Positions 4,183-59,627 of a DNA stretch of 64,000 bases are shown here, one piece after another (position 1 is the stretch's first letter; every line of letters starts with the position of its first letter). This DNA is from Haloterrigena sp. KLK7 (lineage in GTDB: Archaea; Halobacteriota; Halobacteria; Halobacteriales; Natrialbaceae), in NCBI RefSeq assembly GCF_037914945.1, contig NZ_CP149787.1, positions 1,116,001 to 1,180,000 of the forward strand, written 5' to 3'. The translations under genes were made by a program, and so were the position numbers. A model generated the notes under the pieces. That model ran no database searches and was not told the DNA's origin. It worked only from the letters and a program-made list of their open reading frames with translations.

Positions 4183-4310
4183 GTGGCGCGCGCCGAGCTG
4201 CGCCGAACGGACAGTGAGGCGCAGTTCGAAAGCGTGCGAGGGATGAGGGAGTATAACGAGCGAATCGGTTGGGGAGGGGGTGGCGATTCCGTGTTGCCAC
4301 GAGAAGCAGA
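4183..4310 (+). repeat. two-hairpin dispersed element, copy 1
   Basis: About 128 bases that recur at 10213..10350. Shared blocks are GTGGCGCGCGC at the 5' end, GCGTGCGAGGGATGAG in the middle, GAGCGAATCGG then TGGGGAGG, and GTGGCGAT...TTGCCACG near the 3' end. A first hairpin CTGCGCC/GGCGCAG (7 bp) and a second GTGGC/GCCAC (5 bp) are conserved between copies although the stem bases differ, which argues for a structured RNA or a palindromic non-autonomous element. No coding potential. It sits just downstream of the serpin remnant. Confidence 0.6.
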
Positions 4311-10212: not shown

Positions 10213-10350
10213 GTGGCGCGCGCTGACGGTGCGCCTGAGTACTGCGAAGGCGCGCCGGTGAATGCGTGCGAGGGATGAGTGAGCGACCAGCGGGAGCGAG
10301 CGAATCGGCTGGGGAGGACGTGGCGATCCCCGTTGCCACGGTAGCAGAGA
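10213..10350 (+). repeat. two-hairpin dispersed element, copy 2
   Basis: Second copy of the element at 4183..4310, about 138 bases and slightly longer in the middle (extra GAGCGACCAGCGG-type segment). First hairpin GTGCGCC/GGCGCGC has two stem pairs different from copy 1 but still pairing (one as G-U); second hairpin is again GTGGC/GCCAC. The rest of the 10121-10522 gap holds only the thiolase 3' flank and the promoter of the next gene. Confidence 0.6.
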
Positions 10351-54980: not shown

Positions 54981-55053
54981 GCCCGGATGGTGTAGTGGCC
55001 CATCATACAACCCTGTCACGGTTGTGACGCGGGTTCAAATCCCGCTCCGGGCG
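54981..55053 (+). tRNA. tRNA-Asp (anticodon GTC), copy 1
   Basis: 73 bases. Acceptor GCCCGGA pairs TCCGGGC with discriminator G; D-arm TGGTGTAGTGG; anticodon loop CTGTCAC with GTC between the arms CAACC/GGTTG; T-arm GCGGG-TTCAAAT-CCCGC. No intron. Identical to the copy at 55505. Confidence 0.96.
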
Positions 55054-55200
55054 CTTTCTCGAAATTCAAACCCATGAGCAACCAGCTTGCTGTGTTGCGA
55101 ACAATCGAATTTCGGGAAACGCCGAATGGGATTTGAAAACAAAGAGTCGCACGCCCGGACCGGTCGAACGGAGTGAGACCGCAGCCCGGAACGTCTCTGC

Positions 55201-55504: not shown

Positions 55505-55577
55505 GCCCGGATGGTGTAGTGGCCCATCATACAACCCTGTCACGGTTGTGACGCGGGTTCAAATCCCGCTCCGGGCG
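55505..55577 (+). tRNA. tRNA-Asp (anticodon GTC), copy 2
   Basis: Identical 73-base gene to copy 1. The duplicated block also includes about 40 bases of upstream flank (TTAATACCGTCACCGGGAAA then CGATGAGTTGCG), so the promoter was copied with it. Downstream flank differs from copy 1 but matches the 55201 fragment. Confidence 0.96.
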
Positions 55578-56082: not shown

Positions 56083-56207
56083 ACGCTCGAGTCCGGAGAA
56101 CACTACCGGTGACGACGACTAGAGTCGATCACTCGAGAACGCTAATTACTTAGTACCCACTCGGTCATCCATCAGTGGACCGCAACGATTTGCGACACTG
56201 GTAACCA

Positions 56208-58310
56208 ATGACGAAACCGATTACCGTTCTCATCGTCGACAACGAACCGGGGTTCGCCGATCTCGCCGGCGAGATGCTCGAGCGCGAACGCGACGCGATC
56301 GTCGCCGAGTCGGCGACGAACGCGGCGGCGGCGCTGGAGATCCTCGAACAGCGAGAGATCGACTGCATCGTCAGCGATTACGAGATGCCCCAGATGACGG
56401 GGCTGGAGCTCTTGGAACGGGTTCGCGAGGACGATCCGGATCTGCCGTTCATTCTGTTTACCGGTCGCGGCTCGGAAGAGATCGCCAGCGAGGCGATCGC
56501 CGCCGGCGTGACTCAGTATCTCCAGAAGGAGTCCGGCGAGGAGCAGTACGCGCTGCTGGCCAACCAGATCACGAACGCGGTCTCCCAGTACCGGACCGAG
56601 ACGGAACTGCGAGAGAGCGAGCGGCGGTACGAACGGACGCTGACGACGTTACACGAGACGACTCGAGATCTGATGCGGGCGAGTACGAAACGGGAGATCT
56701 ACCGGTCAGCGGTCGATACCGCGAGCGAGATCCTCGACGTCCCGATCGTCGCGGCGTACACGTTCGAACCGACCGACGGGATCCTGAAGCACGCGGCGTC
56801 GACGCGGGAGTCGCGGAAACTCGCCGATCCGGAGGTACAGTTCGAGCAGGGAGAAGGACACGTCTGGGAGGTGTTTTCGGAGGGCGAGAGCGACTACTAC
56901 GAGGACGTGGCGCGGGACACCGAGGACAAGACGCTGAGTCGAAGCGAACTGATCGTCCCGCTTGGGACCCACGGCGTGTTGGTCGCGGGGACCGAAGACG
57001 TCGACGGCTTCGACGAGACGATGACCGAACTGTTGCACATCCTGGCGGCCAACACCGAGGCGGCGCTCGATCGGGCCGAACGCGAGCAACTCCTCCGAGA
57101 ACACGATCGGACGCTTACCCAGCAAAACGAGGAGTTAACGCGGCTCAATCACACCAACGAGATCGTCCGCGAGATCAACCACGGGGTCGCCCAGGCCTCG
57201 ACGCGGACCGAAATCGAGACGACGGTGTGCGAGCGGTTGGCCGACACCGAGCGCTACTGCTTCGCCTGGATCGCCTCGAGCGACGACGAGCCGCCCGAAC
57301 CGACGGCCTGGGCCGGCATCGACGCGGCCTTTATCGACCGGGTCCGGGACGACGGAGAGTGTGCGCCGGAGCTCGCGCTGGTCACGGAGACGCTCGAGAC
57401 CGGACGTGTACAGATCGTCCGAAACGTGCTCGAGACCGACGGCTGGGATCGCCGCCGAAAGGAGGCGTTGACCTACGGGTATCAGACGATACTGGCGGTG
57501 CCGTTGACCGATACGGAACGCCAGTACGGCGTCCTGCTCGTCCACGTGACGGGTGTCGACTCGGTCGGTGACAGCGAGCTGGAGGTGCTCGGCGAACTCG
57601 GCGAGACGATCGGCCACGCGATCCGATCGGTCGAGCGGACGCGAGCCATGCTGACGGACAGTCGACTCGAGCTCGAACTCGCCGTTCACGACTCGCGACT
57701 GCTGTTGAATCGATTCGCCGAGCACGTCGACGGGCAGGTGACTATCGAGGGGGTTATCGAGCGAGACGACGACGTCGTCATGTTCGTCAGCGCGCCGAAG
57801 ACGGCCGATCTCACGCCGCTCGAACAGTGGGCGTCGCTCGAGACGGTCTCGATCGTTTCGGAGGGCGACGACGAGATCCTCTTCGAGGTGACGGTCACCT
57901 CGTCACCGATCCTGGAGATCCTGCGGACCTTCGACGTCCAGTTGCGGACCGCGACCGCGCAGAACGGATCGACGACGCTCGTCCTCGAGGTTCCCCAGCG
58001 AGTCGAAACCCGTTCGCTGGTCGAAGCGATCAGGGACGGGTATCCCGAGACGGAACTCGAGGCGCGGCGCGAGACGACCAGCGCGCGGTCGGCCCGGCAA
58101 CTCGACACGCACCTCGAGGAACGACTCACGGACAAGCAGTTCGAGGCGCTACAGGCGGCCCATTACAGCGGCTTCTTCGAGTGGCCCCGCGAGAGCACCG
58201 GCGAGGACCTCGCCGACGCGCTCGACGTCACGCCGCCAACGTACCATTACCACTTGCGAGCGGCCGAGCGAAAGCTCGTCACGCTGGCGTTCGACGGACA
58301 CTCTAGTTGA
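56208..58310 (+). CDS. receiver-GAF-GAF-HTH_10 (Bat-like) transcription regulator
   Basis: 700 residues. Domains: receiver 1-120 with Asp57 (CIVSDYEMPQ) and Lys107 (YLQKES); a linker helix; GAF 1 about 150-290 (IVAAYTFEPTDGILKHAAST ... LGTHGVLVAGTEDVDGFDET); coiled coil; GAF 2 about 310-475 (RYCFAWIASSDDEPPEPTAW ... LAVPLTDTERQYGVLLVHVT); bacterio-opsin-activator beta domain about 480-630; and HTH_10 at the C-terminus (LTDKQFEALQAAHYSGFFEW ... TPPTYHYHLRAAERKL). It should combine phosphorylation and ligand input to control transcription. The partner kinase is not adjacent. Confidence 0.92.
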   Translation: MTKPITVLIVDNEPGFADLAGEMLERERDAIVAESATNAAAALEILEQREIDCIVSDYEMPQMTGLELLERVREDDPDLPFILFTGRGSEEIASEAIAAGVTQYLQKESGEEQYALLANQITNAVSQYRTETELRESERRYERTLTTLHETTRDLMRASTKREIYRSAVDTASEILDVPIVAAYTFEPTDGILKHAASTRESRKLADPEVQFEQGEGHVWEVFSEGESDYYEDVARDTEDKTLSRSELIVPLGTHGVLVAGTEDVDGFDETMTELLHILAANTEAALDRAEREQLLREHDRTLTQQNEELTRLNHTNEIVREINHGVAQASTRTEIETTVCERLADTERYCFAWIASSDDEPPEPTAWAGIDAAFIDRVRDDGECAPELALVTETLETGRVQIVRNVLETDGWDRRRKEALTYGYQTILAVPLTDTERQYGVLLVHVTGVDSVGDSELEVLGELGETIGHAIRSVERTRAMLTDSRLELELAVHDSRLLLNRFAEHVDGQVTIEGVIERDDDVVMFVSAPKTADLTPLEQWASLETVSIVSEGDDEILFEVTVTSSPILEILRTFDVQLRTATAQNGSTTLVLEVPQRVETRSLVEAIRDGYPETELEARRETTSARSARQLDTHLEERLTDKQFEALQAAHYSGFFEWPRESTGEDLADALDVTPPTYHYHLRAAERKLVTLAFDGHSS

Positions 58311-58333
58311 TTAGTACTCGATTCTCGAGGCCA

Positions 58334-58440
58334 CTAATAGATTAGAAGCTATACTTACCACCTCCCGGTACATACGGATAAATGGCGATCTGCGATAGTC
58401 TATCGCCACCCCCAATCCCCCCACCCCCCAACTTTCCCCC
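58334..58440 (+). repeat. promoter-hairpin-C-rich cassette, copy 1
   Basis: TATA-like CTATACTTA, about 30 bases, then ATGGCGATCTGCGATAGTCT and ATCGCC (a hairpin, GGCGAT...ATCGCC with inner GCGATAG/CTATCGC), then a C-run (CCCCCAATCCCCCCACCCCC). About 40 bases are identical to the copy at 58774. Could encode a small RNA, a 20-residue Pro-rich peptide, or be a mobile repeat. Confidence 0.5.
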
Positions 58441-58725
58441 CTGAACGAACGTCCGAGAGCCATCAGTCGGTTTTCGCCGTCGGTTCGCGATCGGGAGAGT
58501 TCGATCACTCCTCGTTGTATGCATCGGTTGAATCCTCTCACGAGTCCCGCAATCCCAGTGGGAGTATCGCGTTCGAACTGCGGATCGACCGGCCGTTGCC
58601 AGTTTCCGTTTCGAGCCGAATCCGCTCCCCTTGCAAGCAGAACGAAACGACTCACTACTCCGACGAGACGTCTCGGCGTCCCGTCTCGCTGACCTTAATT
58701 AATTAGATGAGGGGCGCAGCAGCCC

Positions 58726-58830
58726 ACTAATTACAGAGGAAGTATATTTAATCCCAGGCAGCGCGTACGAATCGATGGCGATCTGCGATAGTCTATCGCC
58801 ACCCCCAATCCCCCACCCCCACTTTTCCCA
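58726..58830 (+). repeat. promoter-hairpin-C-rich cassette, copy 2
   Basis: TATATTTAATCC (58743-58754) is followed, at the same spacing as in copy 1, by the identical hairpin block starting at 58774 and a C-rich tract that diverges after about 40 bases (CCCACCCCCACTTTTCCC). The 48 bases upstream of both blocks align without gaps and share the TATA position, so the promoter was duplicated with the body. Confidence 0.5.
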
Positions 58831-58877
58831 GGACGACGCCGGGAGCGACGGCTGTTCGGCTCAGACCGGCAGATCGA

Positions 58878-59627
58878 TCACTGCGAACCGATCGACTCCT
58901 CCCACTCGATCCAGTCCTGTTCCCAGCCGCGCCGGGATTCGGCGCGGCGCACGGCGTGTTCTCGATCCTCGCGGGCCGTCCGGTTGCGTTCGACGGCGCC
59001 CGACTGTTCGCCCTCGACCAGTAGCGGGGCGAACGAGACGGGGTCGAACTGCGATCGCCCGCCGTCGGCCGAGACGGCCTCGAGTCGCTGTCCCTGGGTC
59101 CCGCGCGGGAACACCAGTCGCCCGTCGTCGGCCAGTTGCTCGAGCAGGGCTCGCGGCGGCTCGACGGCCGCGGCTTCGAGGAGTACTCGATCGAACGGCG
59201 CGTACTCGGGGAGGCCGTCCGCGCCGTCGCGGCGGTCGACGAGGACGCCCTCGTAGCCCGCTCGAGCGAGGTTCCGGCGGGCTTCGACGACCAGCGGTCG
59301 AGAGATGTCGATGGCGTGAACGTTGGTCTCACCGACGACTTCGGCCACGACGGCGGCCGTGTAGCCGACGCCGGCGCCGACGATCAGTACCTCGTCGTCG
59401 TCCTCGAGCGCCAGTGCTTGCAGTAATCGGGCGGCCGTGCTCGGAGCGAGGACGCGCGTCCCCAGCACCACGTGTTCCCGATCGGCGTAGGCCGATCGGT
59501 CGTCCTCGAGGAACTCGTGGCGGGGGACGTCCCGCATCGCGACGGCGACGACCTCGTCGTGGAGGACGTCCTTGGCCGCGGACTCGAGGCCGTCGACCAT
59601 GTCCTCGCGCAGTACCGCAGGGTCCAT
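58878..59627 (-). CDS. protein-L-isoaspartate O-methyltransferase paralog
   Basis: 249 residues. SAM-binding motif VLIVGAGVGYTAAVVAEVVG, then VHAIDISRPLVVEARRNLAR and post-motif DRVLLEAAAVEPPRALLEQL. The N-terminal motif VPRHEFLEDD and LGTRVLAPSTAARLLQALAL match Pcm proteins, but the substrate loop SAP/H region is altered (PSTAA in place of SAPHM), so activity on isoaspartate is uncertain. Directly downstream of a more standard Pcm on the same strand, 75 bases apart. Confidence 0.8.
   Translation of the reverse strand: MDPAVLREDMVDGLESAAKDVLHDEVVAVAMRDVPRHEFLEDDRSAYADREHVVLGTRVLAPSTAARLLQALALEDDDEVLIVGAGVGYTAAVVAEVVGETNVHAIDISRPLVVEARRNLARAGYEGVLVDRRDGADGLPEYAPFDRVLLEAAAVEPPRALLEQLADDGRLVFPRGTQGQRLEAVSADGGRSQFDPVSFAPLLVEGEQSGAVERNRTAREDREHAVRRAESRRGWEQDWIEWEESIGSQ

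Follow-up and report, generated by a model that had tools for sequence, protein, structure and literature searches.

What do two similar cassettes, placed one behind the other at the end of a regulator gene in a haloarchaeal genome, produce? The locus was analysed within a stretch of 64,000 nucleotides from Haloterrigena sp. KLK7 (contig NZ_CP149787.1; hereafter, the window), in which the cassettes sit between the gene for a Bat-like transcription regulator and a convergent methyltransferase-like gene (Table 1). They had been described as duplicated units of promoter, hairpin and C-rich run, from which a small structured RNA or a short peptide might be made. Judged by sequence and its conservation, it is likely that they represent a two-copy gene for a regulated non-coding hairpin RNA with a C-rich tail, of approximately 50–55 nt. 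The locus lies downstream of a gene whose product we take to resemble RNA polymerase B''. Two tRNA-Asp genes with the same anticodon are also present upstream (window positions 54981–55054 and 55505–55577), approximately 450 nt apart.

The duplication is real. A direct repeat of 100 nt (58328–58427 and 58721–58820) shows 75% identity at a spacing of 393 nt, and includes a core of 32 bases that is 100% identical between the copies (58382–58413 and 58775–58806). The original prediction gave the spacing as 392 nt and placed the second core start at 58774; its coordinates were otherwise right. The core (ATGGCGAT..CCCCC) was matched twice in the window at three or fewer mismatches, and in none of 100 dinucleotide shuffles. 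The genome-wide search for the core, which the original prediction had called for, likewise returned two matches, and both the DNA search and the covariance model identified only two cassette copies in the KLK7 genome (4.64 Mb, five contigs).

Table 1. Features of the cassette locus, in window positions.
Feature	Position	Strand	Remarks
Operator-like box CTAATTACTTAG, regulator gene promoter region	56142..56153	.	Exact same box (CTAA-N4-TTAG, ≤260 nt upstream of the regulator) at 26/35 regulator loci; absent from 72,888 nt of regulator ORFs
REC-GAF-GAF-BAT-HTH_10 transcription regulator (Bat-like) gene, 700 aa	56208..58310	+	Pfam Response_reg, GAF, BAT, HTH_10; ortholog (E ≤ 1e-150) in 87/111 family genomes
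Copy 1 distal operator-like box CTAGTTGATTAG	58303..58314	.	Overlaps regulator stop codon; conserved at −80..−67 in the 59-stretch alignment
Copy 1 proximal operator-like box CTAATAGATTAG, 31 nt from distal box	58334..58345	.	Conserved at −48..−37
Copy 1 TATA box TATACTTA	58350..58357	+	T, T, A at −27..−25 in 97–100% of 59 stretches
Predicted small RNA copy 1, ~55 nt: hairpin, C-tracts, CTTTC end	58382..58436	+	
Copy 1 hairpin, 7-bp stem TGGCGAT/ATCGCCA	58383..58408	+	98.7% of 224 pair cells retain the stem (32 aligned members)
Copy 2 distal operator-like box TTAATTAATTAG	58695..58706	.	
Copy 2 proximal box CTAATTACAGAG, right half degenerate	58727..58738	.	
Copy 2 TATA box TATATTTA	58743..58750	+	
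Predicted small RNA copy 2	58775..58827	+	
Copy 2 hairpin, same 7-bp stem	58776..58801	+	
Protein-isoaspartate methyltransferase-like gene, convergent; syntenic neighbour, outside RNA	58878..59627	−	Pfam PCMT; in 26/30 homologous loci

The anatomy of the cassette was read from an alignment of 59 stretches, comprising 60 model matches over 52 chosen sources minus one duplicate. Across these stretches, which are non-independent (several come from one genome and related species are included), the register is fixed, with box CTAAtTAaTTAG at −80 to −67, box CTAANNANTTAG at −48 to −37, TTA at −27 to −25 and TA at −9/−8 (92–98%), followed by RTGGCG. The TATA position common to both copies was confirmed, in the same register. 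The cassette therefore has the basal promoter of its own (TATA near −26, WW near −10) that is expected of a haloarchaeal intergenic small RNA. Based on the accessible text of PMC4983044, haloarchaeal promoters carry a WW element at −10, with which the predicted TA pair at −9/−8 is consistent. A T-run follows the tail in 54 of the 59 stretches, and its form with TC would match the mapped intergenic terminators of Haloferax, reported as T-stretches with TC in the accessible text of PMC7237163.

The copy 1 hairpin has a folding energy of −11.5 kcal/mol (z −3.6), with 0 of 200 shuffles equally good. The hairpin of copy 2 is identical, although the 69-nt stretch holding it is unexceptional (z −1.1, 30 of 200 shuffles equally good) because the flank is GC-rich. 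The outer stem is nearly invariant, while the top changes freely. Within the family, none of the pairs changed on both sides among 32 aligned members, because the stem hardly varies. For an alternative stem with an apical helix in the 32-sequence alignment, one pair changed on both sides, and 63 of 500 shuffles scored as high. In the tail, the C-tracts are kept and the spacers between them (AAT, TAAT, TTT, CACC) vary, both within and between families. At least four tracts of C3 or longer, which make the other strand G-quadruplex-prone, are present in 33 of the 59 homologous stretches, so that the G-quadruplex potential ascribed to the complement of the C-run is common but not universal. During preparation of the alignments, L002 was dropped as it represents the same place as L001, and L003:1099, L004:1918 and L013:1497 were re-trimmed by a few bases. 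L029, L025:1139 and L026:1895 were left out of alignments A1 and A2; L030 was excluded from A2 and included in A1, A4, A5 and A7; and L075 was removed from A5, where its stem was misaligned.

The gene upstream of copy 1 was analysed at 35 regulator loci, chosen to span genera among the genomes with the regulator, three of them at only 50–51% identity. The RNA stem was identified downstream of the regulator on the same strand in all 35, at 76–309 nt from the last aligned codon (median 77). Among the 89 family genomes listed by both searches, 71 had both RNA and regulator, four the RNA only, three the regulator only and 11 neither (Fisher p = 1.2e-8, uncorrected for shared ancestry); together with the linkage at 35 of 35 loci, this ties a BAT-HTH_10 regulator to its putative targets in the manner of a Bat-controlled regulon. 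On inspection, the three regulator-only genomes contained a diverged RNA with box and TATA. The four genomes holding the RNA without a detected regulator ortholog are a point against the regulator link. In favour of the link, G264, in which no ortholog was detected, has kept the RNA and TATA and lost the boxes. The RNA-only genomes G106, G208 and G288 have kept the boxes whole or in part.

The exact box is absent upstream of nine of the 35 regulators, which is a point against a circuit. In the KLK7 genome (4.64 Mb), 18 sites matched CTAATTAATTAG at two or fewer mismatches, four of them at the RNA/regulator locus; a control pattern gave the same number and is uninformative because the box is a palindrome. 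The two other boxes at one mismatch in this genome were counted against the circuit: one falls within a coding stretch of HTH_10 type, the other upstream of a gene for a transporter (genes named by eye). Because the regulator carries the same box upstream of its own gene and co-occurs with the RNA, we infer that it probably switches the RNA gene beside it. On the second contig, box CTAATGAATTAG (G000:C2:90591-90602, L323) is located upstream of a TRAP-transporter-like binding protein gene, named by eye, which is a possible further target of the regulator.

These data bear on three other readings of the cassettes. Duplication and a hairpin would fit the end of a mobile element or a MITE, which typically occurs in many copies with terminal repeats. 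The genome holds only two copies, however, the same regulator adjoins the cassette in 28 of 30 homologous loci, and the promoter is conserved in register; with two copies per genome at one conserved locus, the core is not part of a transposon end, and a mobile origin is scarcely credible. It is also extremely unlikely that the product is a Pro-rich peptide of 20 residues translated from a leaderless ATG, as had been proposed. Both copies do have an ATG at the predicted start (translation MAICDSLSPPPIP..), but neither the start codon nor the frame is conserved, as would be expected of a leaderless small protein and not of a non-coding RNA. The first codon is ATG in 22, GTG in 13, TTG in 11 and another codon in 13 of the 59 stretches; 25 of 59 have an in-frame stop among the first 29 codons, frequently giving MAI-stop; and the loop and tail show one-base length changes. 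A conserved peptide function was therefore refuted. The element could, lastly, be nothing more than the 3' end of the regulator mRNA, as untranslated region or terminator, given that it lies approximately 77 nt past the regulator in most loci. This is very unlikely, as copy 2, the unlinked copies and the four genomes without a detected regulator ortholog keep the TATA and hairpin, most of them with boxes, and the promoter register is fixed in the 59 stretches.

The small RNA with its own promoter and C-rich tail, present in duplicate, was thus the part of the original prediction that was supported, both by the sequence and by family-wide conservation of the predicted RNA. That prediction had included neither the paired operator boxes, nor the neighbouring regulator bearing the same box, nor a wider RNA class. 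By sequence and comparison, the promoter comprises two palindromic CTAA-N4-TTAG boxes 31 nt apart, followed by the TATA and the predicted RNA 5' end. The predicted RNA begins with the kept-stem hairpin, continues into three or four single-stranded CCCCC tracts split by A, AAT or similar, and ends in a short T-run terminator. In the mechanism we propose, the REC-GAF-GAF-BAT-HTH_10 regulator would use its REC and GAF domains to sense a signal, bind the boxes, and control the RNA as well as itself. The hairpin may protect or present the 5' end, with the C-tract tail as the presumed working part, and having two copies would raise the RNA dose or provide a promoter with different tuning.

The distribution of the RNA was analysed using both DNA and covariance-model searches. 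With a 70-base DNA query, 41 of 293 genomes in the order gave a match, and with covariance model R1, built from 32 sequences, 120 of 392 did so at E ≤ 0.1. Of the 96 genomes listed for the family to which the window belongs, Natrialbaceae (f1), 81 matched R1 at E ≤ 0.01 and 77 at E ≤ 1e-4. No covariance-model match to Rfam 15 (4227 families) was found at 58250–58900, even at E ≤ 5, and Rfam 15 identified only tRNAs in the window and 16 homologous loci. A scan of viral contigs gave 32 matches, of which one passed the C-count filter and resembles chance coding sequence. A scan of named genomes gave at least 120 stretches, mostly chance matches in bacteria; among the matches listed, six haloarchaeal stretches had a C-tail, including L201 and L205. 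Sequences L076 and L077, of genome G262, contain C-tracts after a different hairpin (TTGCCCC..GGGGC), approximately 25 nt past a TATA box, and are perhaps another RNA of the C-tail class.

Weak matches in a second haloarchaeal family (f4) prompted a further model, R2, built from three sequences. R2 matched 104 of 146 f4 genomes at E ≤ 0.05, in 21 of 22 genera and with one to six matches each, the weaker of which may include chance. An alignment of 30 of the best loci plus L030 showed a TATA, a stem of GGCACC/GGTGCC or GGCACAG/CTGTGCC, and a C-tract tail. The promoter box differs, being TC-N5-7-GATAA at −55 to −57 in 21 of 31. Succinate dehydrogenase flavoprotein genes are the neighbours in 20 of 31 loci and a lyase or TFB gene in others, some with an HVO_2718-like regulator. 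Hairpin and C-tract RNAs near succinate dehydrogenase and HVO_2718-like regulator genes are found in L398–L426, with the match near 1501 in most. The GGCACAG/CTGTGCC stem is found in the subset L030, L407, L421 and L422; both L030 and L407 contain GDPD genes, and L030 adjoins a TFB gene.

Members of the class we propose, defined by a GGC../..GCC stem, C-tract tail, T-run and own promoter, are thus found in both f1 and f4. Across 21 members chosen from the two families, both partners had changed at three pairs of the stem. The two-family covariation was 0.388, compared to 0.178 in shuffled alignments (sd 0.030; 0 of 500 shuffles as high), with slid controls at or below 0.155, a comparison that rests on aligning RNAs whose shared descent is unproven and which may have one ancestor or have converged. 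A further model, R3, matched four of 39 genomes (31 from other families and eight f1 genomes without the RNA), and all six weak places were chance-like.

What the tail acts upon was addressed through its complement. No long antisense target was supported in the KLK7 genome, where four non-self sites matched the 15-base complement at two or fewer mismatches, compared to five for the control. A slight excess over the control was noted in G240 (5 vs. 3), G189 (7 vs. 3) and G223 (6 vs. 1). The G-rich strand of the cassette had also been likened to a two-hairpin element at 4.2 and 10.3 kb. This proved to be a separate dispersed G-rich repeat (GTGCGAGGGATGAGCGAGCGA..GCGAATCGGYTGGGGAGGGTGTGGCGATTCCC..GTTGCCACG; window positions 4222–4301 and 10260–10340), with 42 matches in the KLK7 genome (among the matches listed, all on contig C1), and it was found in 15 of 30 other chosen genomes. 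The repeat consensus contains GGGTGTGGCGATT, complementary to the RNA over 8 nt and, in addition, part of the C-run. Its presence does not track the RNA, as the repeat was unmatched in four genomes of two genera and in G128, all with the RNA, and present in G005, in which no RNA was found. It was discounted as kin or target of the RNA, and the 8-base complementarity was treated as coincidence.

Because no long antisense target was supported and the G-rich repeat was set aside, the tail probably works via short G-runs or via a protein. The protein route would make the RNA a sponge, whose C-tracts bind and titrate a C-tract-recognising RNA-binding protein at a dose set by the regulator; CsrB-type RNAs titrate CsrA in this way. 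The conservation of the C-tracts while the spacers vary, within and between families, and the lack of a long complementary target for the 15-base complement in the KLK7 genome are consistent with a sponge, but the RNA is short and has only three or four tracts, and we regard this as a tentative, rather unlikely reading. The favoured route is for the tail to pair with several mRNAs at short G-runs, at a probability slightly below an even chance. A Shine-Dalgarno model of such pairing is weakened because most mRNAs of haloarchaea lack a leader (72% in Haloferax, from the accessible text of PMC4983044). Alternatively, the convergent methyltransferase mRNA could be overlapped in its 3' untranslated region by copy 2, which would act in cis, as antisense, on that neighbour alone. 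The methyltransferase gene ends 50 nt from copy 2 and is present at most homologous loci (Table 1); however, in one genus (three loci) the regulator-linked RNA has no methyltransferase neighbour in the stretch examined and a second copy is unlinked, the f4 RNAs have other neighbours, and the RNA has its own regulated-looking promoter. Action on this neighbour alone is thus distinctly unlikely.

To our knowledge, the regulator or the working part has been identified for very few archaeal small RNAs, and very few are deeply conserved. In the C-tailed hairpin RNA proposed here, a single RNA family would be accompanied by its linked regulator and operator, both conserved. A second family shows the same layout, and a broader class is defined in this way. 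All four components, regulator, signal, RNA and target, can be tested directly at one locus, and the clear question raised by the C-tract tail is whether its partner is RNA or protein. A bolder reading, which we consider speculative and somewhat improbable, is that the C-tract hairpin RNAs of at least two haloarchaeal families are the output arm of dedicated signalling circuits, each with its own operator and neighbouring regulator (Bat-like, or HVO_2718-like in some f4 loci), all converging on one target, either a C-tract-binding protein or G-run mRNAs. If true, this would give archaea a counterpart to the sponge or multi-target small RNA systems of bacteria.

No description of a haloarchaeal hairpin with a C-tract tail was found in the accessible text of the open PMC literature, including PMC7002113, PMC5867862, PMC8155600, PMC7237163, PMC4983044 and PMC5847659, the last of which mentions Bat. 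Conserved, unnamed intergenic RNAs of Halobacteria are reported in the accessible text of PMC7002113, and these could include the C-tailed hairpin RNA. The predicted RNA resembles sRNA132 and s479 of Haloferax volcanii in being a short intergenic RNA of a haloarchaeon with its own TATA promoter. It differs from s479, which is CRISPR-linked with a crRNA-like 5' handle in the accessible text of PMC8155600. It also differs from sRNA132, which, in the accessible descriptions, concerns a phosphate transporter; those of both RNAs include neither a 5' hairpin with C-tract tail nor a dedicated Bat-like regulator.

In the Bat/bop system of Halobacterium, a regulator of the BAT-HTH_10 kind acts on a short palindromic box just upstream of the TATA. 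The same kind of regulator and box placement are predicted here; unlike in Bat/bop, the regulator is predicted to act on small RNA genes and on its own promoter, and the CTAA-N4-TTAG boxes come in pairs 31 nt apart. Sponges of the CsrB/CsrC type contain many GGA loops. The C-tailed RNA shares with them a series of short repeated motifs, which would allow one protein to be bound many times over, but in place of many loops it would have one hairpin and three or four single-stranded tracts. Bacterial C-rich small RNAs (RsaE type, RepG) pair with G-rich ribosome-binding sites and, as predicted here, combine a hairpin with an unpaired C-rich stretch and are likely multi-target; in contrast, the RNA described here is archaeal, among mostly leaderless mRNAs, and has tandem pure-C tracts and putative targets.
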